A stretch of 64,000 nt of DNA from an uncultured Lachnospiraceae bacterium. Its GTDB lineage: Bacteria; Bacillota; Clostridia; Lachnospirales; Lachnospiraceae. Positions 1,480 through 63,315 of the stretch are shown one piece after another; the first letter of the stretch is position 1; every line of letters starts with the position of its first letter. Position numbers and translations under genes: made by a program. The stretch is taken from assembly GCA_902774915.1 (NCBI GenBank), contig CACYKH010000003.1:1-64000 (forward strand). The letters run 5' to 3'. The notes under the pieces are model-generated. The model did no database searches, was not told where the DNA came from, and worked only from the letters and a program-made list of their open reading frames with translations.

Positions 1480-1485
1480 AAATCA

Positions 1486-1510
1486 AGGGCATATCAAAAT
1501 GATATGCCCT
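1486..1510. terminator. Bidirectional intrinsic terminator
   Basis: A perfect 10-bp stem, agggcatatc/gatatgccct, with loop aaaat is flanked by A-rich and T-rich runs. It lies between two convergent genes and can serve both. Confidence 0.85.
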
Positions 1511-1515
1511 TTTCA

Positions 1516-4188
1516 TTATTCATCATTTACTACTGTTATGCTAAATGCGCCCGGTCCGAAACTTGTTGCTACAACTGGATTAGTCTGGACAAAGTAAATC
1601 TTTTTGAAATTATGCTTCTCTTTTATCAGGCTTTTAATATAATCAAGATCTTTCTTTGAAAGACCTACATAGTTCACAAAGACAACTTCTTCACTTAGAT
1701 TATTGTACATCAAAGCTTTATGAACAAATCTTTTCCACACTCTTTCCGATGATCCAAAGAGCATACCAGCCATTTCGATTTTTCCATTCTTTGTATAGGA
1801 GAATGGTCTCAGCATAAGTGACTTCATGAATCCTGCATAATTTGTGCTGACAAAACCAGCTCTTGCCAGATAATCCATGTTATCTATCATAATGCTATTC
1901 TTAATTCTTTCTTTTAGCTTGCCAAGTCTAAGTACAACTTCTTCAACACCCATACCAGCTTCTATCATACGGCAAGCAAAAATTGCCACAAGACCCTGAC
2001 CACTTCCCATATGACGACTATCAAATACAGTAACGTTATCAAAGGATTCAGCTGCTTCCATAGAATATTTGTATGGATGATGTTCCATGTCAGATGACAT
2101 TGTAATATGTATTATATTATTTGCTGTTGTAAGATTCTCAGCAAAGAATTTCTCATAATCATCCGGCTTTGGAGAACGGGTAACGACCTTATTATTAGGA
2201 TCAGCCATATATTCCATAAGACCTGTTGTATCTATATCAATACCCTCTCTGAACATACCTTCAGAAGTCTTGACCTTATGATTTATAACTGTAATCCTAT
2301 ACTTATCAAGTATTTCCTGAGTAAGATTACATGTACTTTCAGTAGTAATAGCAATCCTTCTCTTTCGCTGACTCTCCTGCATCATGGAGATTGCATCTCC
2401 AGTTTCAAGACCACTGGAATCTATAACACGGATAAGAGACTGAGGAAGCTGTCTAAATACTTCATTTTCAAGATCATTTCCGGTAACAGGCTTTACTACA
2501 TAACCATTAAAACCTTCTCTTGCATAGATAACTCGGTTCTCTTCACCGGCATTTGCTGTAAGAACAACAATACTTGTTTCCTTATTCTTTCCACCAACCT
2601 GATTACGAATATTTCTGAAACACTCCACTCCGTCCATTTCTGGCATCAGATGATCCATGAAAATAAGATTATATTCTTTATCCAGAGTTTTCTCTAAAGC
2701 CTCTACTCCGTTCTTCGCTGTGTCTATCTGAATCTTTGTATCACGAAGAAGCTTTGTAACAACAAGAAGGTTTGCTTCGTTATCATCAACCACAAGAAGC
2801 TTTGCATCTGGAGCTTCAAATTTATGATTATAGCTGGAGCGATTATGCACTCTATGCCTCTTTTCATAATCATATTCGCCAAGCTCTTTATCTGAATTAG
2901 CCTTCTGAGGAATCTCGATAATAAACGTAGAGCCCTTCGTATATACACTGTTAACAGTTACCTTACCACCCATCAGATCAAGGAACTGCTTAACAATAGA
3001 AAGACCAAGTCCTGTTCCTTCTATATGTTTCGTATTAGTCTCATCAACACGCTTAAATGCAGTAAAGAGATATGGAATGTCCTCTTTCTTGATACCCATA
3101 CCAGTATCTTCTACGGTATAGATCATATTAACAAGGCCATCATCCTTCTTTTCACATTCAACAGAAAGTGAAATGGAACCTTCTTTAGTATATTTAATCG
3201 CATTATTCAGGATATTCATAAGAATCTGTTTAATTCTTACTTCGTCTCCTCTAAGCTCAGTAGGGATATCCGGAGCAACATTTATATGGAAATCCAGATT
3301 CTTTTCCTTCGCACGCAGCCAGAGCATTCCAACGATTTCAGAAAGCATACTGCCTGTATTATATGGTTCTACAAGAATACGCATATCTCCAGCCTGGAAC
3401 TTGGACATGTCCAGAATATCGTTGATTGTATTAAGAAGCATTTTACTGGCAGCACGAATGTTAACAGCATCCTCAGCTATCTCGTCACTGATGTCCTCTC
3501 GCAAGATCATTTCATTGAGACCAATTATGGTATTAATAGGAGTACGAATTTCATGACTCATACTCGAGAAGAATCTATTCTGAGATGCAACAAGGCCTTC
3601 AATTTCCTTATTCTTTTCTTCGGAAATCTGCCTTTCTCGTTCTATCATATTATGCTGATTTGTAAGAATAAACGCAGTATTAAAACCAACAACGATAAGC
3701 GTTGTAAAGGAAATCAGATATGCTTCCAGATTTGTAAATTCAATCATGCTATTTTGAACAAAAGCACCGACAAAATATACAAAAACTCCAATAACTGCTA
3801 ATGCAGCGGTGAATAGCTTTTTCATAGTGTCAGTTTTTAGTCCAATATTTACTATAATAACAATATATAAAAACCAAATAGGGGCATCTCCCTTAATTCC
3901 GCCACCAATAAGAAAAATCACAGGGAAAAAGAAAGCACCTAATAAAATACAGATAATTATGGTTCCCAAATCAACTTTTTCAGAACGTGCCGTAAGAAAT
4001 CCTATTAAAGAAACAAGGGCAAAGGCAACAAAAACAACAGCGGTATTAAGGCTAAATCCACTGACTAATAATCTCACCAAAAAGGATACGAATAGAATTT
4101 CACAGGTTATGAGAATTTCAAAAACGTAAACTCTTACACGAAGATCAATGTTTTCATTTGTTGCAAATTTTTTTAGTCTACTAGGCAT
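1516..4188 (-). CDS. Membrane hybrid histidine kinase fused to a receiver and a C-terminal DegV (fatty-acid-binding) domain
   Basis: 890 residues. Residues 20-175 hold about six hydrophobic segments (a membrane sensor with little extracellular part). A short coiled coil (180-200) leads to HisKA with phospho-acceptor His212 (SHEIRTP), then HATPase with N box (NILNNAIKY, about 325), DTGMG (361) and GTGLGLS (391). A receiver follows at about 462-580, with phospho-acceptor Asp512 (FMDHLMPEMDG) and Lys566. Residues 611-890 are a complete DegV/EDD-type domain: ITTESTCNL start, VVTRSPKPDDY (like TSQPS), VFDSRHMGSGQG, YLARAGFVS and a terminal SFGPGAFS. DegV proteins bind fatty acids, and FakB members present them to FakA kinase. 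The His that usually precedes GPG appears to be Ser here, so a sensing or output role is more likely than FakB catalysis. Its start overlaps the upstream kinase gene by 16 nt, implying translational coupling. Confidence 0.9.
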   Translation of the reverse strand: MPSRLKKFATNENIDLRVRVYVFEILITCEILFVSFLVRLLVSGFSLNTAVVFVAFALVSLIGFLTARSEKVDLGTIIICILLGAFFFPVIFLIGGGIKGDAPIWFLYIVIIVNIGLKTDTMKKLFTAALAVIGVFVYFVGAFVQNSMIEFTNLEAYLISFTTLIVVGFNTAFILTNQHNMIERERQISEEKNKEIEGLVASQNRFFSSMSHEIRTPINTIIGLNEMILREDISDEIAEDAVNIRAASKMLLNTINDILDMSKFQAGDMRILVEPYNTGSMLSEIVGMLWLRAKEKNLDFHINVAPDIPTELRGDEVRIKQILMNILNNAIKYTKEGSISLSVECEKKDDGLVNMIYTVEDTGMGIKKEDIPYLFTAFKRVDETNTKHIEGTGLGLSIVKQFLDLMGGKVTVNSVYTKGSTFIIEIPQKANSDKELGEYDYEKRHRVHNRSSYNHKFEAPDAKLLVVDDNEANLLVVTKLLRDTKIQIDTAKNGVEALEKTLDKEYNLIFMDHLMPEMDGVECFRNIRNQVGGKNKETSIVVLTANAGEENRVIYAREGFNGYVVKPVTGNDLENEVFRQLPQSLIRVIDSSGLETGDAISMMQESQRKRRIAITTESTCNLTQEILDKYRITVINHKVKTSEGMFREGIDIDTTGLMEYMADPNNKVVTRSPKPDDYEKFFAENLTTANNIIHITMSSDMEHHPYKYSMEAAESFDNVTVFDSRHMGSGQGLVAIFACRMIEAGMGVEEVVLRLGKLKERIKNSIMIDNMDYLARAGFVSTNYAGFMKSLMLRPFSYTKNGKIEMAGMLFGSSERVWKRFVHKALMYNNLSEEVVFVNYVGLSKKDLDYIKSLIKEKHNFKKIYFVQTNPVVATSFGPGAFSITVVNDE

Positions 4189-6770
4189 AATATCTTCTCT
4201 CCCAAAGACTTAAAAATATCAAGCACTCGAACATGATTCTCCTCTATATAAGAAGCATCCTCATCATGTGCAGCTTTCTCAAGCTTAAGTGCATCCTCTG
4301 TAATATCAGGTCTTGCACCGATCATCTTAGATGAACTTTTCATGGCATGAATGATAATTTCATATTCCTTCCAGTTCTTCTCTTCAAAGAAATTATTTAA
4401 TTTAGTAACCTTACCATCCATTTCAGATGCAAACTGTAGTAGTACGTCATGATACAGATCTGGATCGCCACCAAGGAAGATTAGCGCTCTATCCATATCG
4501 ACATCTATCTTTGCGAGTTCATTCTTTAAGAACTCCGCATCATTTGATCCTGATGATGAACCATCGTCCGGACCAAACTCAAGAACCTCATCATCACTCG
4601 TAGCATCAAATTCCAGAACTTCGTCATCAACTGAAGCCTCAAACTCTAGAACTTCATCTTCAACTGATGCATCAGTCACATTTGCTTCTTTAGTTTCAGG
4701 AACCTCATCTTCTTTATTTACAAAAGAAATTGAATTCTTAGGAAGCAATCTCTTAAGCGTTCTTTCAAGCTCTTCTATTTCAATAGGCTTACTTACAAAG
4801 CCATCAAATCCCTCTGACAAGAACATCTGCTTAGCAGAGCTCATGGCATTTGCAGTAAGAGCAACAACAGGAATCTCCCGATTCAGTCCCTTTACATCAG
4901 AACGAATTTTCTTCATTGCTTCAACACCATCCATATTTCCCATCATATGGTCCATAAAGATGATATCGTACCTATGGTCTCTACATAGATCAATAGACTC
5001 CTGGCCCGAAGTTGCAGTACTGACTTCCATTCCATATCTCTTAAGAATGCTCTTCGCAACTATCAGATTCATTGGCTCATCGTCTACTACAAGAGCATGA
5101 ACATCTGTAACGCGTAATGTGTCCCCAGGCTCTTTATTAGATTTAAGACCACTATTAAGAATAGAAACAATAGGAAAAGCGTAGAATGGTTTTGTAGATA
5201 AACGAACCTTTGAATTCTTTGGAAGTTCAAATCCAGGTTCAGAAATAACTACAACCGATATATTATCTGCAATTGATTCAATATATTCTCTGTCAGAAAC
5301 ATACTCATTATCATTAATAAGAAGATGTGTAAGGTTAGCACTGCTTACAACCTTCTTAAGAGACTCAATGCTCTCAACTCTATGCATCTCAACACCCAGT
5401 CCCTTTGTAATAGATAAAGACTGTGAATTGTAATAATCTCTTACTACCGGATTAGATATATTATCAAACTTAAGATATGCAGCCAGATTAATCTCTCCCG
5501 GCTTAGAAACCGACATACAACTACTTGGTTCAACTACTGCCATTGGAAGACTAACCCTTACAGTTGTTCCAACCTCTGGTTTACTATTAATAGTCATGAA
5601 ACCACCAAGAAGAGAAACAAAACCGGATACTATAGAAAGTCCAAGGCCCAGTCCACTACCAACTCTGGCTCTTCCCGAATCTGACTGATAGAACCTCTCA
5701 TAAATCAGTTCCAGTTCTTCCTCATTCATTCCTATTCCTGTGTCAGAAACTTGGATAAACAGGTTAACTCCATAACCCTGAAGTTCAGAAGAAAGCTTTA
5801 AGAAAACACCACCCTCACTTGTATACTTAAGTCCATTTGATACAAGAGCTTTAATTATCTTCTTAAGCTTTGTTACATCGCTATTCATAACAGCCGGAAT
5901 AGCAGGATCAATATCAATAACCAGCTCAACACCTGGTTTCATCATTTCACGAAGATCAGGCATGATATCATTTACTGCTGATGAAAGCATAAAGTCCTCA
6001 CTATTTTTAACGATATTACCTCTATCAATCTCAGAGAAATCAAGAATATCGCCAATCTGATCTGATACACGATTACCAGCCTTGCGAACCTCTTCCATAT
6101 CCTTTTTTACTTCTGGATTTTCTTCCTTATCAATACAAATACCAGAAAGACCAATGATGGCATTTACAGGTGTACGTATCTCATGGGATACATTTGCCAG
6201 GAAATCATTCAGTCTTTCTGTAGATTCGGTGAGCTCATCAATCTCCTCCTTTGAGGAACGGATTACTTCACCCCAGTTATCAATTATTGTTTTCAGGAAA
6301 TATGCCAGCATTGTGATTACAGAATAATGCATGGTAATGCGGCAGATATCGATAACACCAAAATGAACACCATTATAGACCATCTCTGTCAGGTCATATG
6401 TCATTGTGATGTAATATGTAATCTGACACAGAGTAAGAAGTGGCTTAACTCCGGTCATAATGAAAAGCATCATAATAGCGGCCATAACTATGGCCAGATC
6501 GTAGGTACTAGTGCTGTGAATACCATAGATCAGATAATTACACATCATGATCATGGCTATGATCCACAGTCTTTGTATGTCTGAAAATAGAGATTTGATA
6601 TGTAGTATCCAGCAGCACGAAACTGCGACTGCAATCAACAAAAGAACCCATTTATCCCATCCAAGGAGAAATGTGATTATAACGTGCATCAAAGCAAATA
6701 TGGTATAGCCGACAACAAGGATAATGCGTCCTACATCGAACATTTCTTTTGTTTCTTTGTTAAACTCCAT
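4173..6770 (-). CDS. Membrane hybrid histidine kinase with receiver and HPt domain
   Basis: 865 residues. Residues 14-160 form about five to six membrane segments. HisKA has His196 (SHEIRTP); HATPase shows NGLKYT (312), DTGIGM (343) and GSGLGLGLS (371). A receiver-like stretch at about 430-545 lacks a clear phospho-acceptor Asp (LLINDNEY) and looks degenerate. The true receiver (about 556-675) has Asp607 (FMDHMMGNMDG) and Lys661. An acidic linker with three near-copies of DEVLEF (705-732) leads to a C-terminal HPt domain with His808 (HAMKSSSKM). The protein therefore carries all modules of a His-Asp-His phosphorelay, and the HPt could phosphorylate the receivers of the REC-GGDEF-REC protein encoded 30 nt upstream. 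The ribosome binding site is weak (ggggttt). Confidence 0.9.
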   Translation of the reverse strand: MEFNKETKEMFDVGRIILVVGYTIFALMHVIITFLLGWDKWVLLLIAVAVSCCWILHIKSLFSDIQRLWIIAMIMMCNYLIYGIHSTSTYDLAIVMAAIMMLFIMTGVKPLLTLCQITYYITMTYDLTEMVYNGVHFGVIDICRITMHYSVITMLAYFLKTIIDNWGEVIRSSKEEIDELTESTERLNDFLANVSHEIRTPVNAIIGLSGICIDKEENPEVKKDMEEVRKAGNRVSDQIGDILDFSEIDRGNIVKNSEDFMLSSAVNDIMPDLREMMKPGVELVIDIDPAIPAVMNSDVTKLKKIIKALVSNGLKYTSEGGVFLKLSSELQGYGVNLFIQVSDTGIGMNEEELELIYERFYQSDSGRARVGSGLGLGLSIVSGFVSLLGGFMTINSKPEVGTTVRVSLPMAVVEPSSCMSVSKPGEINLAAYLKFDNISNPVVRDYYNSQSLSITKGLGVEMHRVESIESLKKVVSSANLTHLLINDNEYVSDREYIESIADNISVVVISEPGFELPKNSKVRLSTKPFYAFPIVSILNSGLKSNKEPGDTLRVTDVHALVVDDEPMNLIVAKSILKRYGMEVSTATSGQESIDLCRDHRYDIIFMDHMMGNMDGVEAMKKIRSDVKGLNREIPVVALTANAMSSAKQMFLSEGFDGFVSKPIEIEELERTLKRLLPKNSISFVNKEDEVPETKEANVTDASVEDEVLEFEASVDDEVLEFDATSDDEVLEFGPDDGSSSGSNDAEFLKNELAKIDVDMDRALIFLGGDPDLYHDVLLQFASEMDGKVTKLNNFFEEKNWKEYEIIIHAMKSSSKMIGARPDITEDALKLEKAAHDEDASYIEENHVRVLDIFKSLGEKILCLVD

Positions 6771-6800: not shown

Positions 6801-8609
6801 TTATTCCTCATCCTCAAGACTCTTAGGTCTTCTATATCTTTTTCTGAGTGACGTAAGCTCAAGAACGTGATTCACTCTGGCTTTAAGCACCTCTTCTTTA
6901 TATGGCTTCTTAATGAAATCCATAACGCCCTTTGAAAGCGCTTTAACTTCAACCTCATCACTAAGTCCATCAGATAAAAGAACAACAGGAACTCTACTGA
7001 TATCATCGCCAACTTCTTTCAGCTTTTCCAAAACATCAAATCCATTCATATCTGGCATATTGAAATCGAGGAGAATGAGTTCCGGAACCTTTTCAACTGA
7101 GCGAGCATAATCAAAGAATGCCGCGCAATTATCAAAGCTATGAACAGTAATTCCAAACTTGCTAAGAACATTTGCTATAAATGTTCTATCAGGTTCAGTT
7201 GCTTCAACAAGAGCAACATCTGCAGTAGCATTTACTGGAGAAATACCATTATCATTTCTAACAAACTTAAAATCATAGTTTATAACAACAGCAGATTTAT
7301 CCAAATTTGTTTCAGACAAGGAATTATAGGATTCATTCCAATCATCAATAACATTATTGATAACCCTGGTTACAAACTCTTCACGAATATCAGTAAGCAG
7401 AATGTAATATTGATTATATCTGCTTCTAGTAAGAAGATCAGATTTACGAAGAGATTCTCTTATATGATTACCAAATTCATCGCAGCAATTCTTATAACAC
7501 TCTGCATCAGCACCTTCGGCCTGTTCCAATGTAAAAAGAACTTTACAGGAATTGATGTTATTTCTAAGAAAATATCTGGTTGTATAACGGAATACATAGG
7601 AAAAAGCTTCCATATCCAGCTGCATCGCCACATTTGGAATATTTCTCTCACCCATTATTTCAGATAATGTATTTATATCCTGAACATCAGACTCATCTTC
7701 TGTATCAAAAAGGTCAGAAGAATAAACCGAACAACCATGTTTTCCATTCTTCTTAACTATATAAAGACATTTATCAGCAAGCTTTAGCAGTGAATTATAA
7801 TCATTACCATGTTTAGGAACCATGATGGCTCCAACTGATGTACCAAGAGGAATATTCATGTCCTCTCCCATCATTTCCTTGGCTGATTTAAGAAGTTTTT
7901 CATTTAACTGCCTGGTGATATCTTCAACTGTTTCTTCATCCTCAACTCCGCGACAGAAAGAAACGAATTCATCTCCACCAATACGTCCATACTTACTTCC
8001 CTGAGGAACTGTCTCTCGGATTATATTTGCAAAAGAAATAAGAACCTTATCTCCCATCTCATGACCGTAAATATCATTAACAAGCTTAAAGGAATCCAGG
8101 TCAATCATCATAAGACAGCCACTCTTTTCAACACACATCTTAGAAAGAGCTGTACTAGTAGCAGCCTTATTCAAAAACCCGGTAAGCTTATCTAGAGTAG
8201 CTTCACTCTTAAGAGATTTCATCTCCGACTGCATTGATATAACATTATCTATACGACGAAGCAGAACATCAGGGTTAAAAGGCTTTCTGACAAAATCAGA
8301 AACACCAACCTCAAAGCCTTTAGTCTCTGTTCCAGACTTCTCGTCTGCCGTAAGGAAAATAACAGGAGTTTCATTAAGTTCCTTTTCTTTTTCCAATTCA
8401 CGGAGCTTTTCCAAAGTTTCAAACCCGTCCATTTCAGGCATCATAATATCAAGAAGAATAAGATCCGGAGCCCCATTCTCAGATATATAATTTATTAATG
8501 CCTTTCCAGACTTAAGAGCTGTAACCCTCATATTGTTTTTGCTGAGAATACTTCCTGCAACCTTCAGATTAGCAGTGTCATCATCAACAACCATTATCCA
8601 TTTTGCCAT
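6801..8609 (-). CDS. Response regulator diguanylate cyclase (REC-GGDEF-degenerate GGDEF-REC)
   Basis: 602 residues from the ATG at 8609; a TTG four codons' length upstream is too close to the GAGAGG ribosome binding site. The first receiver (1-125) has DDD at 9-11, Asp54 and Lys109. The GGDEF domain has an intact active site at 211-215, so it should make c-di-GMP from GTP. The RxxD inhibitory site is absent (PQGS in its place). Residues about 325-455 resemble a second GGDEF domain whose signature has decayed to RYNQYYI. A second receiver ends the protein (about 463-585), with Asp515 (LLDFNMPDMNG) and Lys563 but no acidic pair at its start (EATEPD). It is first in the three-gene signalling operon, with no terminator before the hybrid kinase gene. 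Confidence 0.9.
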   Translation of the reverse strand: MAKWIMVVDDDTANLKVAGSILSKNNMRVTALKSGKALINYISENGAPDLILLDIMMPEMDGFETLEKLRELEKEKELNETPVIFLTADEKSGTETKGFEVGVSDFVRKPFNPDVLLRRIDNVISMQSEMKSLKSEATLDKLTGFLNKAATSTALSKMCVEKSGCLMMIDLDSFKLVNDIYGHEMGDKVLISFANIIRETVPQGSKYGRIGGDEFVSFCRGVEDEETVEDITRQLNEKLLKSAKEMMGEDMNIPLGTSVGAIMVPKHGNDYNSLLKLADKCLYIVKKNGKHGCSVYSSDLFDTEDESDVQDINTLSEIMGERNIPNVAMQLDMEAFSYVFRYTTRYFLRNNINSCKVLFTLEQAEGADAECYKNCCDEFGNHIRESLRKSDLLTRSRYNQYYILLTDIREEFVTRVINNVIDDWNESYNSLSETNLDKSAVVINYDFKFVRNDNGISPVNATADVALVEATEPDRTFIANVLSKFGITVHSFDNCAAFFDYARSVEKVPELILLDFNMPDMNGFDVLEKLKEVGDDISRVPVVLLSDGLSDEVEVKALSKGVMDFIKKPYKEEVLKARVNHVLELTSLRKRYRRPKSLEDEE

Positions 8610-8658
8610 AAGCAAATACCTCTCAAACTTATGTAACTATTAAGTATATATGTATCTT

Positions 8659-10323
8659 CTACTTATTGAATAATGTTGAGAAAATACCTCGGCCAAGACT
8701 TGCTCCCAGGTTTCCACCAAGAGTCTTTCCAAATTTACCGAATTTACCACCAACAGTCTTACCTACTTCTCGGCCAACTGTGCCTGTGATAGAATTTCCA
8801 ACCGATTTAGCTGCTCGTTTTTTAGCAGCCTCTTCTTTATCCTTTTCTCTCTGAGCAGCCTTAGCTTCCTGTTCAGCCTTTCTAGCCGCTTCTCTTTCTT
8901 CTCTTTCCTTCTGCTTAGCTGCTTCTTTTTCTTCTTTCTCTCGCTGTTTTTCAGCTTCAGCTTCTTCCTTTTCACGCTGCTTTTCAGCCTCAGCCTCTTC
9001 CTTCTCCTTAGCAAGAGCTTCAGCTTCTTCTATTCCTCTTCTCTCAAGGAATTCAAAAGCAGAATCAGGATCCACAGCTTCTGCATATTTGCTGTAGCAG
9101 ATGCTGGACTTTATGAGTGTATCTCTCTGACTGTCAGAAATCGAACCAAAGTTTGACTGTGTTGGAAGTATATAAACCTTTTCAGCCATAGTAGGAATAC
9201 CATCATCTCCAAGGAATGAAATAACAGCCTCTCCAGTTCCAAGTGCAAGAATTGTTTCGTATGTATCAAAAGCAGGGTTCTCTCTAAAGGACTCTGCAGC
9301 AGCCTTTACTGACTTCTGATCTGAAGGAGTGTAAGCACGAAGTCCATGTTCTATCTTGTTTCCTAGCTGAGCAAGCACTCCATCAGGAATATCCCTTGGA
9401 TTCTGAGTACAGAAATAAACTCCAACACCCTTTGATCTGATAAGCTTAACAACCTGCTCTATTTTTTCAAGAAGAGCTTTAGGTGCATCCTTAAATAACA
9501 GATGTGCCTCATCAAAGAAAAATACCATCTTTGGCTTATCCATATCTCCTACCTCTGGCAGTCTCTCAAATAGCTCTGACAGAAGATAAAGAAGGAAGGT
9601 TGAATAAAGCTTTGAATTATTAATAAGACTGGAGCTGTCCAGTACATTGATCATTCCCTTGCCGCCATCACCAAATGTAAAGAAATCCATAATGTTAACA
9701 GCTGGCTCACCAAAGAACTTATCTCCACCTGCAACCTCAAGAGCTACAAGAGCTCTAACTATAGCAGCTATTGACTGAGGACTCATCTTTCCATACTGAG
9801 CTTCAAACTCTGCATTATGGTCTGAAACATAGTTCAGCATAGCCTTAAGATCCTTAGTATCTATAAGGAGTAGGTTATTATCATCTGCAATTTTAAATAC
9901 GATTGAAAGAATATCTGACTGGAGTTCATTTAGCTCCATTAGACGTGATAAAAGAAGGGGCCCTATCTCAGTAATTGTAGTTCTGAGAGTAACACCCTTA
10001 TCCCCATAAATATCCCAAAGAGTTACAGGATATCCCTTATATTCGAAACCGGCATCCGCAAGACCGAACCTCTTAATTCTCTCCTGCATATTTTCACTGT
10101 CATCACCAGGAATACTAATGCCAGCTATATCTCCTTTGACATCGGCCATAAAAACAGGCACACCCATATCTGAAAAGCTCTCTGCAAGAACCTTCAGAGT
10201 TACAGTCTTTCCTGTTCCTGTAGCACCTGCTACAAGGCCATGACGATTTGCCATCTTAGGAAGTAGACAAATCTTATCTCCATTATCATTAATACCTACC
10301 CAAACATTACCTTCGTTATACAT
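8659..10323 (-). CDS. HerA-like / DUF853 family ATPase
   Basis: 554 residues. The Walker A motif is GATGTGKT near the N-terminus, Walker B is VFFFDEAHLLF (about 265), and CTQNPRDIP (about 304) is the arginine/sensor region typical of the FtsK-HerA superfamily. The order of motifs and the ending GKTVGGKFGKFGKTLGGNLG match the DUF853 (YjgR-type) bacterial HerA relatives, whose function is not established; DNA or protein pumping is assumed from the fold. Residues about 425-510 are a highly charged Glu/Lys/Ala coiled coil inserted before the glycine-rich tail. It lies upstream of the signalling operon with a 49-nt gap and no clear terminator, so read-through is possible. Start supported by ggaaggggt. 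Confidence 0.85.
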   Translation of the reverse strand: MYNEGNVWVGINDNGDKICLLPKMANRHGLVAGATGTGKTVTLKVLAESFSDMGVPVFMADVKGDIAGISIPGDDSENMQERIKRFGLADAGFEYKGYPVTLWDIYGDKGVTLRTTITEIGPLLLSRLMELNELQSDILSIVFKIADDNNLLLIDTKDLKAMLNYVSDHNAEFEAQYGKMSPQSIAAIVRALVALEVAGGDKFFGEPAVNIMDFFTFGDGGKGMINVLDSSSLINNSKLYSTFLLYLLSELFERLPEVGDMDKPKMVFFFDEAHLLFKDAPKALLEKIEQVVKLIRSKGVGVYFCTQNPRDIPDGVLAQLGNKIEHGLRAYTPSDQKSVKAAAESFRENPAFDTYETILALGTGEAVISFLGDDGIPTMAEKVYILPTQSNFGSISDSQRDTLIKSSICYSKYAEAVDPDSAFEFLERRGIEEAEALAKEKEEAEAEKQREKEEAEAEKQREKEEKEAAKQKEREEREAARKAEQEAKAAQREKDKEEAAKKRAAKSVGNSITGTVGREVGKTVGGKFGKFGKTLGGNLGASLGRGIFSTLFNK

Positions 10324-12542: not shown

Positions 12543-14387
12543 ATGGCAATAAAAAACATCGTTGCAGTTGTTTGTGGAATGGATGAAGAATATCCTTTCC
12601 AGATCATTCAGGGAATAAATGATTATGCCAGGGAACATTCTATCAATGTTTCTTATTTTGCTGCTTTCGGTGGTATAGTTGACAGCGAAGACTTTGATAA
12701 CGGCGAATATAGCATTTATAATCTGCCGGACTATTCTAAATTCGATGGTGCACTTCTGCTCACCAATACTTTTTCCAATCCAGAAGTTAGAAATAAGATT
12801 ATAGATAAAGTGAAGGCAGCTGACCTCCCTTCAGTAATTTTTGAATGCAAGGATTACGAAGAATTCTATGATATCAGCATCAATAACTATTCTGTTATGA
12901 AGAAGCTGGTCAATCACCTTATTAAAGAACATGGTGCAAAAGTATTCAATTTTATCTCTGGTCCTTCAGCAAATCCAGAGGCAAAAGAAAGATATAGAGC
13001 ATTTAGAGATGCATTAAAAGAAAATGGCATTGAATTTGATGAAGAAAACCGTTTTCATCAGGGACATTTCAGAAGCTATGACGGAGTTAAGGCAATTGAG
13101 AATTTCGAAAAATCCGGTATGAGCATGCCAGATGCATTCGTCTGTGCTAATGACAGTATGGCCCTCACAGCCATGAGCCGCCTTCAGGATATGGGATATA
13201 AAATCCCGGATGATGTTATAATCACAGGTTTTGATTATACTTTCAATGCCCGTTTCTCCAGCCCGGTTCTTACAACTGTAAAACGACCTCTTTACTATTC
13301 CGGAACGAAAGCATGTTCATTACTAGATGAAATTACAGATGGAAAAGATATTCCAAGAAGCACAAGCCTTGAGGCAATACCAGTACTTACCGAAAGCTGT
13401 GGGTGTACTGAATTAGATGAAGATGACATCCGAGATTTTAAAAGAAGTACTTTCCAGCGCTTTGAACGTTCATATGCGCATATTCATATGCTTAATCGCC
13501 TGATAGCCGGTCTGGCTGGTTCAGAAAATATAAATGAATGCGTGGATTCAATTGAACAAATGCTCAGAATGATAAATTGTTCTCACTTCAATCTTTGTCT
13601 TGTAAAAGACTGGGAGCATACATACAATACAATCGATGTAGAAAACGGGGAGAATACATATCCTCCGCTTATGACTGCCCCACTTGTATGGGACAGCGGA
13701 GTTAGAAGGACTGTAAAACAGTTCCCAAGTAAAAGACTTTTCCCTGAGCCATTTACAACTGGTGGTAATATAAGTTACTTCATACCACTCCACTTTAACC
13801 AAAGGTGTTTGGGATATTATATCTTTATAAATAACGATTTTCCTATTCAGAGTATACTCTGTCACACCATGACCATGAGTATAGGAAATGCTATCGAAAA
13901 CATTTCAAAGCTGAATGTTTTGGATCCACTTACAAAGATTTATAATAGAAATGGATTCAATAAGAACGCGGAGTTTATCTTTAAAGAATGTGCCAACGAG
14001 CGCAGGCCTCTATCCATCTGCTTCATAGATATGGATGGCCTGAAGAAAATCAATGATACCTACGGACATAAGGAAGGCGATTTCGCCATTAAGAGTCTCG
14101 CAAGCGCTATCGAATCAGCTTGTGGTTCAGTAGATGTATGCGGCAGGTTTGGCGGCGACGAATTTGTAGCTGTGGGTCGTGGATTTGGATTTATAAAGAA
14201 ATTTACAAACAAACTTACCACTAAATTGGAAGAAATAAATGAGGAATCTGGCAAGCCTTATAAAATAGAAGCAAGTGTGGGTTATATATCCACAACCCCA
14301 CTCAGATCCGATTCCTTGTTCGATCTTATAGAACAGGCTGATAAAAAAATGTATGAAGTAAAGAAAGAAAAATACAGTAAACAGTAA
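12543..14387 (+). CDS. Soluble LacI-type sugar-binding-like sensor fused to a GGDEF diguanylate cyclase
   Basis: 614 residues, no signal peptide and no membrane segment. Residues 1-285 are a periplasmic-binding-protein fold of the LacI/GalR type: VAVVCGMDEEYPFQIIQGI, FNFISGPSANPEAKERYRAF, DAFVCANDSMALTAMSRLQD and IITGFDYTFNARFSSPVLTTV. The LacI helix-turn-helix that normally precedes this fold is absent. Residues about 300-440 look like a GAF-type domain. The GGDEF domain (about 450-610) has its active site at 537-541; the RxxD inhibitory site is missing Arg (GSVD). I infer a cytoplasmic sensor that couples a small ligand, perhaps a sugar, to c-di-GMP synthesis. It is a single plus-strand gene ending at a terminator shared with metA. 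Confidence 0.87.
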   Translation: MAIKNIVAVVCGMDEEYPFQIIQGINDYAREHSINVSYFAAFGGIVDSEDFDNGEYSIYNLPDYSKFDGALLLTNTFSNPEVRNKIIDKVKAADLPSVIFECKDYEEFYDISINNYSVMKKLVNHLIKEHGAKVFNFISGPSANPEAKERYRAFRDALKENGIEFDEENRFHQGHFRSYDGVKAIENFEKSGMSMPDAFVCANDSMALTAMSRLQDMGYKIPDDVIITGFDYTFNARFSSPVLTTVKRPLYYSGTKACSLLDEITDGKDIPRSTSLEAIPVLTESCGCTELDEDDIRDFKRSTFQRFERSYAHIHMLNRLIAGLAGSENINECVDSIEQMLRMINCSHFNLCLVKDWEHTYNTIDVENGENTYPPLMTAPLVWDSGVRRTVKQFPSKRLFPEPFTTGGNISYFIPLHFNQRCLGYYIFINNDFPIQSILCHTMTMSIGNAIENISKLNVLDPLTKIYNRNGFNKNAEFIFKECANERRPLSICFIDMDGLKKINDTYGHKEGDFAIKSLASAIESACGSVDVCGRFGGDEFVAVGRGFGFIKKFTNKLTTKLEEINEESGKPYKIEASVGYISTTPLRSDSLFDLIEQADKKMYEVKKEKYSKQ

Positions 14388-61167: not shown

Positions 61168-63315
61168 TTACTTTGTCATTCTCTCGGTATAGTCATCTTT
61201 TGGCATTGGTTTTGCGTAGTAGTAACCTTGAATCATATCGCAACCCTGCTCAGCCAGGAAGTCTACCTGGCCCTTCTCCTCAACACCTTCTGCCACAGTT
61301 CTCATATTAAGACTCTTTGCAAGCTTGATAGCTTCGGATACTACAACCTCTCCTCTCTCGCCAGCATTTTCGCCTCTGAAGAATTCAGCATCCAGCTTCA
61401 GGATATCCAACGGCATGTCCTTAAGGGAATTAAGTGACGAGTAACCTGAACCAAAGTCGTCCATGGAAACTACAAAACCATAATTCTTTAATTTCTTGAT
61501 TGTCTCAATCATGGCATTCTTATCATCGAAGAATGCACTCTCGGTAAGCTCAATCTCGATCAGGTTATGAGGACATCCAGCATCATCTACCATATCTCTA
61601 ATCTGTTCTGCCAGATCATTCTCTGCAAAATGCGCTCTTGAAACATTAACTGAAACAGGAACACATTTATAGCCCTGATCCAGCCAGACCTTCTGATCCC
61701 TTGCCACATGAGAAATCATGTAGTGATCTATCTCGGTGATAAATCCATTCTTCTCGAAAAGAGGAATTATCCTGCCCGGAGTTACAAATCCATACTCTGG
61801 AGATTCCCATCTTATAAGCGCCTCCGCTCCACTAAGCTCATCTGTTCTAGGATTATATTTAGGCTGGTAATAAACCTTAAACTCTTCGTTTTTAAGAGCC
61901 GACCATTGATGTTCCTGAACTGTATCCAGCCACTTCTGATCTTCAAGAAGCTTATTATCAAAGAATTTAATTCCTGATTCATCTGAACCGCTAAGGGTTG
62001 ACCTTGCTGAACATGCATTGTTGTAATGCTGTTCAATACTTATATTCTTACGGCTGGCAGTCTTACCCTTCTCGTTCTTTGTGCTTGGAATAAGATCAAC
62101 GCCTATCTGGAATTTGAAATCATGGTCTCCACCAAGAGCCTCAAGTTTAGTTATAAGCTCGTGGAGTCGCATCTTCAGTTTATCTTCATCTTCATATTTC
62201 AGAAGGAGTGCAAAATTAGAAGTTGTGGCATGGGCCATCTTTTCCTTTGACTGTATTTCCCTCTGAATAGTCATATAGATTTTCGTAAGCATCTCTTCGC
62301 CATCCTTCACTGAATGACAAAGAGCATAATTTCTATAATTCTTAAACACAAGATTAGCTACAGCAAAATTCTCTTTAGCATTTCTTCTCTTTCTAAGAGT
62401 CTTCTCTCCATTGATCAGATACCACATCCAGTTACGTCCCTGAGTTGTAGCATCCAGGAAGAACAAACTCGTAAGTCTTGTCTGATGAACAATAGAAACG
62501 ATTACATTAACAAATAAAATAGTAACAATTATTGCAACCAAAATGATAACTGCTGCATAGATTTCCAGGAAAAGAATCACATCTCGCATATTCAGATTAA
62601 ACACTGCTTTTCCAATGAAATGCTCTCCGTCTTTTGTATCCACAGAAATCCATGCAGGAATTCCCATTGAATCTATCTTGTCTTTTGTATCTGCATTATT
62701 TGAATACTGAAAATATACTCCATTAGAATAATGAACAGTACTACTTCCCGTTTCATCTGATTCCTGACCTAGTTCATCTTTAAGTTCATCCTTCAGCTCA
62801 TCTTCATCAGTAGTTGAGATAACAAAACCGGTATCACCATTTTCATCACTTAGATAATTCTCGCCTATCCACTTAAAGACTTTGTTCGCTCTAAGTTTAA
62901 GATTATTGTTATTATCAATATATATCATGTCAGATTCCGCATCTTCTACAACATGATATTTCACATTTTCTTCAGATAAAATGACATCCGCTTCTTTAGT
63001 GCTTCTGGTATCTTCGCCCTTCTTATAGATGACAATTCCCGAATCGTCTGTTACCACGAAGTCCATATCACTTTCCTCGAGGATGGACTTAATATCATCA
63101 TTTTCTATTCCGCGCTCATAAATCTTGGATAATCTGACAACCTCATCATATCCATTTACAAACTTGGATTCCAGAATGTATTGAAGAAAGAATCCTGACA
63201 AAAACACCATCATAGCAACAAATAAAACTGTGAAAATTGTAAATGCTATTATGGAGCCCCATATATTATTCTTTTTTACTTTTCTATATAATTTCTGATT
63301 TTTATTCTTCGCCAT
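61168..63315 (-). CDS. Membrane sensor c-di-GMP phosphodiesterase (degenerate GGDEF plus EAL)
   Basis: 715 residues. Two membrane helices (20-46 and about 247-273) flank an external sensor of about 200 residues resembling a CACHE-type fold (MDFVVTDDSGIVIYKKGED, GTGFVIS-like GDTGFVISTTDEDE). Residues about 310-455 are a GGDEF-type domain without the motif (ATTSNFALLLKY in its place). The EAL domain (468-715) is intact: EAL at 498-500, VNVSRAHF, ELTESAFF, DDFGSGYSS (619-) and KLDAEFF. It should hydrolyse c-di-GMP to pGpG, opposing the two cyclases in the window. Start supported by cgggaggccata. Confidence 0.92.
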   Translation of the reverse strand: MAKNKNQKLYRKVKKNNIWGSIIAFTIFTVLFVAMMVFLSGFFLQYILESKFVNGYDEVVRLSKIYERGIENDDIKSILEESDMDFVVTDDSGIVIYKKGEDTRSTKEADVILSEENVKYHVVEDAESDMIYIDNNNNLKLRANKVFKWIGENYLSDENGDTGFVISTTDEDELKDELKDELGQESDETGSSTVHYSNGVYFQYSNNADTKDKIDSMGIPAWISVDTKDGEHFIGKAVFNLNMRDVILFLEIYAAVIILVAIIVTILFVNVIVSIVHQTRLTSLFFLDATTQGRNWMWYLINGEKTLRKRRNAKENFAVANLVFKNYRNYALCHSVKDGEEMLTKIYMTIQREIQSKEKMAHATTSNFALLLKYEDEDKLKMRLHELITKLEALGGDHDFKFQIGVDLIPSTKNEKGKTASRKNISIEQHYNNACSARSTLSGSDESGIKFFDNKLLEDQKWLDTVQEHQWSALKNEEFKVYYQPKYNPRTDELSGAEALIRWESPEYGFVTPGRIIPLFEKNGFITEIDHYMISHVARDQKVWLDQGYKCVPVSVNVSRAHFAENDLAEQIRDMVDDAGCPHNLIEIELTESAFFDDKNAMIETIKKLKNYGFVVSMDDFGSGYSSLNSLKDMPLDILKLDAEFFRGENAGERGEVVVSEAIKLAKSLNMRTVAEGVEEKGQVDFLAEQGCDMIQGYYYAKPMPKDDYTERMTK

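Follow-up and report, generated by a model that had tools for sequence, protein, structure and literature searches.

The DNA considered here (the window) is a stretch of 64,000 nucleotides from an uncultured Lachnospiraceae bacterium: positions 1 to 64,000 of contig CACYKH010000003.1, forward strand, in assembly GCA_902774915.1. Close to its left end lies HK-REC-DegV, a minus-strand gene whose product continues a hybrid histidine kinase, that is, a histidine kinase (HK) with attached receiver (REC), into a complete DegV domain in one uninterrupted frame. (Loci are referred to below by L numbers and genomes by G numbers.) The parts of the gene are these:

1516..4188, minus strand: the HK-REC-DegV gene, one uninterrupted frame of 890 residues (Pfam and NCBIfam).
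3661..4143, minus strand: membrane region, residues 16-176, with five to six hydrophobic segments (hydropathy only).
3388..3582, minus strand: HisKA, residues 203-267, phospho-acceptor H212 at 3553-3555 (Pfam, 56.9 bits).
2902..3249, minus strand: HATPase_c, residues 314-429 (Pfam, 96.7 bits).
2458..2796, minus strand: receiver (Response_reg), residues 465-577, phospho-acceptor D512 at 2653-2655 (Pfam, 80.0 bits).
2371..2451, minus strand: linker, residues about 580-606, of which 597-606 score below 50 in the predicted local distance difference test (pLDDT) of a REC-DegV model.
1528..2358, minus strand: DegV domain, residues 611-887 (Pfam, NCBIfam, predicted structure and Foldseek).

The original prediction, made from the letters alone, had placed membrane segments, HisKA (His212), HATPase, receiver (Asp512) and a complete DegV domain in this single frame, and the Pfam, NCBIfam and hydropathy results agree with it on every part. 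What it had missed is the strand, an overlapping gene for a second hybrid kinase with a histidine phosphotransfer (HPt) domain, a REC-GGDEF-REC gene and a free-standing DegV subunit. The profile search that it proposed for DegV (PF02645) gives 143.1 bits against a cut-off of 27 and covers nearly the full profile (positions 1-278 of 280); TIGR00762, the NCBIfam model for DegV, gives the 890-residue protein 156.2 bits against a cut-off of 99.7. Besides H212 and D512, the receiver residues D468, D469, T544 and K566 are found in the window protein. None of the six varies across 36 aligned proteins (including L043 and L055, which are without part of the N-terminal membrane region), and the ATP-binding boxes are kept as well; this identifies the protein as a hybrid histidine kinase. 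No Hpt match was found in the 890-residue protein with Pfam at E 0.001.

The same long frame is found in other assemblies. In the genus, 36 of 61 genomes (that of the window included) hold a close relative of the window's DegV in a frame of at least 404 residues, two of them in two copies, and 35 of the 38 open reading frames (ORFs) at the genus loci are 741-911 residues long, the other three (219-404 residues) including two that are cut by contig ends. A relative in a frame of more than 400 residues is present in at least 67 of the 396 genomes sampled from the family, a lower bound with weaker rows outside the count; the long-frame counts for both samples were made by eye from the listed rows. 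The survey proposed in the original prediction thus finds the fusion recurring across Lachnospiraceae. A named collection yields 356 relatives, and the 80 loci kept come from Lachnospiraceae, from Saccharofermentans and related metagenome-assembled genomes and from a few isolates, many of their titles naming the rumen or other ruminant gut sites; 76 of the 80 carry a complete HK-REC-DegV and the remaining four are open at the 5' end. Wider sampling adds little: one genome of another family from the order sample of 294 genomes (G648, a 924-residue frame), and four genomes of a single genus from the class sample of 392 (frames of 908-917 residues). At E 1e-60 a match is given by 13 of the 398 genomes sampled from the phylum, three of them with frames of more than 400 residues, all in the window's family; at that threshold no frame of more than 400 residues appears outside the family, and there is one further frame of 397 residues, in G1333.

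An assembly artefact joining two genes is ruled out by this conservation in other assemblies. Single broken copies do exist (L135 and L066), and they speak for an artefact of assembly or annotation, or for a decaying pseudo-domain; that explanation is nonetheless left with next to no probability by the long frames in genus and family, and by a ratio of nonsynonymous to synonymous substitution (dN/dS) that stays below 0.21 for the DegV domain in all eight pairs of genes compared.

The DegV domain itself is modeled with confidence (mean pLDDT 91.9; predicted template modeling score, pTM, 0.89), and Foldseek ranks 1-45 are all solved DegV/FakB chains, at template modeling (TM) scores of 0.73-0.84 by query length. 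(The REC-DegV model, with a pTM of 0.65 and a linker that is partly below 50 pLDDT, does not fix the arrangement of the two domains, and for that reason no claim about an interface is made.) What separates this domain from the FakB carriers is the set of residues by which the latter work. Passages of PMC8892158 and PMC9136124 assign Thr62, Ser95, Ser171 and His270 of FakB1 to a network that holds the fatty acid carboxylate, Arg173 to catalysis and a latch, and Arg205 to docking on FakA and the membrane; in a passage of the latter source the FakB variant R173A is inactive with FakA and normal in fatty acid exchange. Aligned with T62, S95, S171, R173, R205 and H270 are T670, H703, A777, F779, F811 and S876 of the window protein, the S95 column being unsure because of a loop-length difference. 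Of the carboxylate network, then, T670 is kept and the other three positions hold H703 (in the unsure column), A777 and S876, while phenylalanine stands at the places of both Arg173 and Arg205. Ser876, at the place of H270, is what the original prediction had seen as a probable Ser for the His near the GPG motif. The argument that it drew against ordinary FakB catalysis is strengthened by the loss of the FakA-related residues, beyond what the single sequence could tell.

These replacements characterize a group and not just one protein. The residue counts cover distinct proteins with domain spans of at least 240 residues in ORFs not cut by locus ends (L158 is kept), and the stand-alone DegVs set beside them are ORFs of 260-360 residues matching the A1 profile at E <=1e-3, of which 24 were kept. 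Arg173 is present in 9 of 114 HK-REC-DegV proteins (Gln in 91) and in all 24 ordinary DegVs; Arg205 in none of the 114 (Phe in 80) and in 21 of the 24, the other three having Lys; His270 in a single one of the 114 (Asn in 87, Ser in 19) against 22 of 24. Position 62 is Thr or Ser in 30 of 114 against 24 of 24, Ser95 is found in 15 of 114 against 23 of 24 (column unsure), and S171 is mostly changed among the HK-REC-DegV proteins. For the whole clade, all architectures included, the contrast with ordinary DegVs is 0 of 130 against 35 of 35 for Arg or Lys at position 205 and 1 of 130 against 32 of 35 for His270. Ordinary DegVs have 30 conserved columns; the clade has lost eight of these, and five of the eight belong to the six published functional residues. 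Residues newly conserved in the clade include T32, G35, F38, Y52, F73 and W211 (FakB1 numbering). In a 71-row DegV tree the 37 signalling domains lie on one side of a single branch with support of 100/100 (bootstrap/Shimodaira-Hasegawa-like approximate likelihood ratio test, SH-aLRT) that is present in all 200 bootstrap trees, and a 75-row quick tree makes the same signalling/ordinary split at 100. (Of the 114 HK-REC-DegV rows, 23, hand-picked for spread, went into the trees; four long-branch rows were dropped from the bootstrap tree and kept in the quick tree.)

The window genome has one Dak2-domain match, in a 576-residue frame of FakA-like length, and a separate ordinary DegV (L072) with the common ordinary signature TSGRRH, so that normal Fak chemistry is likely to be served elsewhere than by HK-REC-DegV. 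The Dak2-domain protein would nevertheless be a recipient for fatty acid if the fused domain, which does have the DegV fold, were still a working FakB merely tethered to a kinase. With F811 and F779 in the places of R205 and R173, with Arg or Lys at position 205 in 0 of 130 clade members, and with L072 available, this is a very improbable account; the form of it in which an ordinary FakB has been tethered by chance is rejected on the lost FakA-docking and catalytic residues.

The immediate surroundings of HK-REC-DegV in the window are:

4173..6770, minus strand: partner hybrid kinase HK-REC-HPt, 865 residues, HPt-like His808 at 4347-4349; overlaps the DegV gene by 16 bases.
6801..8615, minus strand: REC-GGDEF-REC response regulator, 604 residues, in the same gene run.
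1485..1511, no strand assigned: terminator-like 12-bp inverted repeat with a 3-nt loop, between the converging PHP and DegV genes.

The Hpt match of the window's partner scores 18.9 bits (the Pfam cut-off is 24.6) and the partners at L166 and L170 score over the cut-off; the His808 column is His in all 87 distinct partner rows, that of the window included. The loci set, window aside, comprises 117 distinct HK-REC-DegV proteins (four with an open end), ten of them with less than 2 kb of upstream DNA. Among the 107 with at least 2 kb, an HK-REC-HPt gene lies directly upstream on the same strand in 102, and in 60 of these 102 it overlaps the DegV gene. Inspection by eye shows an HPt-bearing gene close by in each of the other five: the fused gene is split behind an intact partner (L135), the partner is in two ORFs (L106 and L157), there is a 614-bp gap (L161), or the DegV gene is the second of a tandem pair (L177). 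The HPt domain that a phosphorelay needs is thus encoded either in the same chain or in a neighboring gene. At L177 (6750-12139, minus strand) the tandem pair of HK-REC-DegV genes follows a single HK-REC-HPt gene, and one of the two is the only member of the clade, among 130, with His270.

Regulators of the cyclic di-GMP (c-di-GMP) type are frequent in the neighborhood. Of the 39 cases with enough DNA, 21 have a GGDEF regulator as the gene next upstream of the partner. Of the 42 signalling DegV loci for which 5-kb flanks are available, 23 have a REC-GGDEF or REC-HD gene no more than 6 kb away, and 41 have another HK-REC gene; the corresponding figures for ordinary DegV loci, of which there are few (n=8), are 0 of 8 and 0 of 8. 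Among the neighboring regulators are REC-GGDEF proteins at L166, L170 and L181 and receivers with an HD domain at L165 and L173; the latter we read as HD-GYP enzymes. Since the search that first collected the signalling rows was one for DegVs similar to the window's clade, and most family loci are chosen high-scoring rows, these rates describe the signalling clade rather than DegVs at large.

The DegV unit is not confined to the C-terminal side of a receiver. HK-REC-DegV-HPt is found at L154 and L159 by Pfam, and six times in all by our own profiles; DegV-HPt at L181 by Pfam and at L173 under the Hpt cut-off, two in all by our own profiles; DegV-HK-REC at L158, cut by a contig end (Pfam; one by our own profiles). 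At L156 (5807-10543, minus strand) a chain of 1578 residues is read by Pfam as DegV-dCache-HK-REC-HPt, the one DegV-HK-REC-HPt of our own profiles. There are accordingly at least four fusion arrangements, with DegV after REC, before HK, before HPt, and between REC and HPt. In all nine cases in which one chain carries both DegV and HPt, no HPt was detected in the neighboring hybrid kinase, and the module therefore tends to have one HPt, wherever that is located. Free-standing DegVs of the signalling clade also occur, directly behind HK-REC-HPt genes at L166, L167, L170 and L190; the gene at L165 shares bases with an HK-REC gene and is possibly a fusion that has been broken.

The place of DegV after the receiver in most members is the usual place of an output domain, and the loss of R173 on its own spares fatty acid exchange in FakB1 (in a passage of PMC9136124). 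The domain might then be an output, in which phosphorylation of the receiver switches the loading or release of lipid and the kinase controls lipid traffic. This is rather unlikely: none of the 130 clade members retains the residue for docking on FakA, through which the known route to phospholipid runs; in some proteins DegV precedes the kinase (L158 and L156) or adjoins an HPt domain (L173 and L181); and the c-di-GMP-type regulators near 23 of 42 modules are the likelier output.

The head-group site differs between architectures. Those other than HK-REC-DegV mostly keep Ser or Thr at position 62 and Ser95: S62 is found in all six HK-REC-DegV-HPt proteins and S95 in five of the six, and all five single-domain signalling DegVs have both (T/S62 and S95). 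The site is therefore most altered in the HK-REC-DegV group, to which the window protein belongs. Here a second alternative gains some ground, namely that DegV has become a lipid-free module for protein-protein contact, holding two kinases, or REC and HPt, together. The changed carboxylate-network positions in most HK-REC-DegV proteins would fit it, as would the newly conserved residues of the clade and the proximity of DegV to HPt, in cis or in an adjacent gene. The residues kept at 62 and 95 in the HK-REC-DegV-HPt and single-domain members suggest instead that some members of the clade still have a ligand pocket, and the complete fold of a lipid carrier is predicted; on balance we consider a lipid-free module unlikely, though far from negligible.

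The reading that we prefer, and to which we give about an even chance, is that a FakB-like carrier has become a regulatory subunit of a conserved phosphorelay, most likely one with a c-di-GMP output, and that its lipid state gates the relay. A carrier turned sensor or regulator is the simplest reading because the residues for FakA docking and catalysis are gone and R173A still exchanges fatty acid; the kinases, the single HPt and the c-di-GMP-type regulators often found close by point to a phosphorelay whose step from receiver to HPt is gated by DegV. The two overlapping genes would make two hybrid kinases, HK-REC-HPt and HK-REC-DegV. Phosphate would pass from H212 of the DegV kinase to its own D512, from there to the module's single HPt in the partner, and on to the receiver of the REC-GGDEF protein, which in its phosphorylated form would alter c-di-GMP. 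The cytoplasmic DegV domain, formerly a FakB-type lipid carrier and no longer serving a fatty acid kinase, would keep the carrier fold and most likely hold a lipid or acyl molecule. Whether it is loaded or empty would gate phosphotransfer between REC and HPt, making DegV an input rather than an output, and the lipid status of the cell would in this way tune c-di-GMP. Lipid sensing by the DegV domain is plausible, and loss of R173 need not abolish binding because R173A exchanges fatty acid normally.

Several observations weigh against this gated-relay reading. The equivalents of T62, S95, S171 and H270 are changed in most HK-REC-DegV proteins, so that the head-group site is remodelled or lost and free fatty acid may not be the ligand; R205, which is also a membrane contact in FakB1, is gone. 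The ligand may be a lipid other than a fatty acid, or there may be none. Thus, of the earlier proposal of a lipid-responsive signalling protein, the fusion and its association with phosphorelay parts stand, while fatty acid as a certain ligand falls with the changed head-group residues. In 18 of the 39 cases with enough DNA the gene next upstream of the partner is not a GGDEF regulator, and 19 of 42 loci are without a REC-GGDEF or REC-HD gene within 6 kb; a c-di-GMP output is therefore not universal. The HPt of the partner in the window genome is below the Pfam cut-off, as already noted. The enrichment of functional residues among the lost columns has a P of 0.002 (0.001-0.03 at other thresholds) that ignores shared descent.

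Evolutionary rates lend the idea of an input little help. The dN/dS of DegV exceeds that of HK in seven of the eight pairs, and in two, the window with L033 and with L034, the DegV and membrane parts stand at 0.20 and 0.34-0.39 while HK and REC are at 0.03-0.07. Fast change of this kind is often found in sensory parts, and in these two pairs DegV and the membrane region would fit the part of inputs. Set against this, DegV is at 0.04-0.11 in six of the eight pairs and below HK in one, and many synonymous distances (dS) are near or above 1; with such low rates and near-saturated dS the argument is weak. A comparison of L035 with L037 turned up a separate oddity: membrane and REC parts are near-identical (dS 0.008 and 0.026) and the kinase part is distant (dS 0.97), as if it had been exchanged by recombination.

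A wider proposal, which we advance tentatively and at somewhat less than even odds, is that these proteins represent a class of cytoplasmic lipid receptors, derived from a carrier that was recruited once, perhaps at first as a separate subunit of an HK-REC-HPt phosphorelay, left its fatty acid kinase, was fused in at least four ways, and now ties c-di-GMP to the state of the cell's lipids in rumen and gut bacteria of the Lachnospiraceae and of the Saccharofermentans type.

Elsewhere in the window, a LacI-type periplasmic-binding domain (Peripla_BP_3) and GGDEF are joined in one chain at 12543-14387 (plus strand), and an EAL-domain protein is encoded at 61168-63315 (minus strand). With the EAL protein and the GGDEF genes the window holds families that break c-di-GMP as well as families that make it. 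A HerA_C ATPase gene (8659-10323, minus strand) precedes the REC-GGDEF-REC gene at a distance of 43 bp. L033 and L034 have it in the same place (91% identical), and other genes are found there in L035, L036 and L038. At L047 and L049 the DegV gene is directly followed by genes that are about 20 kb distant in the window (28694 to 20423, including that of initiation factor IF-2).

DegV proteins are known lipid carriers whose roles beyond FakA-dependent lipid uptake are poorly understood, and a conserved phosphorelay clade offers them another role, one that can be tested. A route from lipid to c-di-GMP in gut and rumen anaerobes is suggested as well; to our knowledge, little has been established about c-di-GMP inputs in these organisms. 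At a practical level, the signature of the clade (no Arg or Lys at position 205 and nearly always no His270) separated all 130 signalling DegVs from all 35 ordinary ones in the comparison. It might be applied to other genomes, and would keep annotators from naming free-standing signalling subunits FakB. No description of a DegV domain inside a phosphorelay or fused to a histidine kinase was found among the papers listed by the literature searches (subscription papers and preprints lay outside them, and absence from print is not thereby shown). FakB4 is, in a passage of PMC10138225, a DegV protein that takes no part in incorporating exogenous fatty acid; a mention of DegV in PMC3146951 is, in the passage concerned, a gene-neighbor remark on hemolysin III.

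Comparison with known systems places the two halves of the protein in different company. With S. aureus FakB1 (PDB 5uto, 6mh9 and 7scl) the DegV half shares its fold (TM about 0.8) and its profile family at about 22% identity, but FakB1 is a free carrier for FakA, whereas the window's DegV is within or beside a phosphorelay; R205 is replaced in all the signalling DegVs and R173, H270 and S171 in most. The kinase half shares the HK-REC(-HPt) core of BarA, TorS and ArcB. For both kinases of the module the top two NCBIfam matches are BarA and TorS, although all such matches are far under the equivalog cut-offs, and we know of no DegV domain as part of these families. In the RpfC/RpfG diffusible-signal-factor system, RpfC is an HK-REC-HPt kinase and RpfG a REC-HD-GYP protein, and HK-REC-HPt genes together with REC-HD or REC-GGDEF genes are what is found at DegV modules. 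RpfC of Xanthomonas is, according to a passage of PMC5391125, a histidine kinase of the membrane whose response to a fatty acid depends on a 22-residue N-terminal region; its sensor, as described there, is thus N-terminal and not a DegV domain, and the DegV module has two kinases. Fatty acid kinase and two-component signalling also meet in S. aureus, where SaeRS activity requires fatty acid kinase (a passage of PMC5539427); that link, as far as the passage goes, runs between separate proteins, whereas in the window the DegV unit is physically part of the relay. What is new in HK-REC-DegV is thus the unfamiliar and probably lipid-binding subunit of a phosphorelay that is otherwise familiar.

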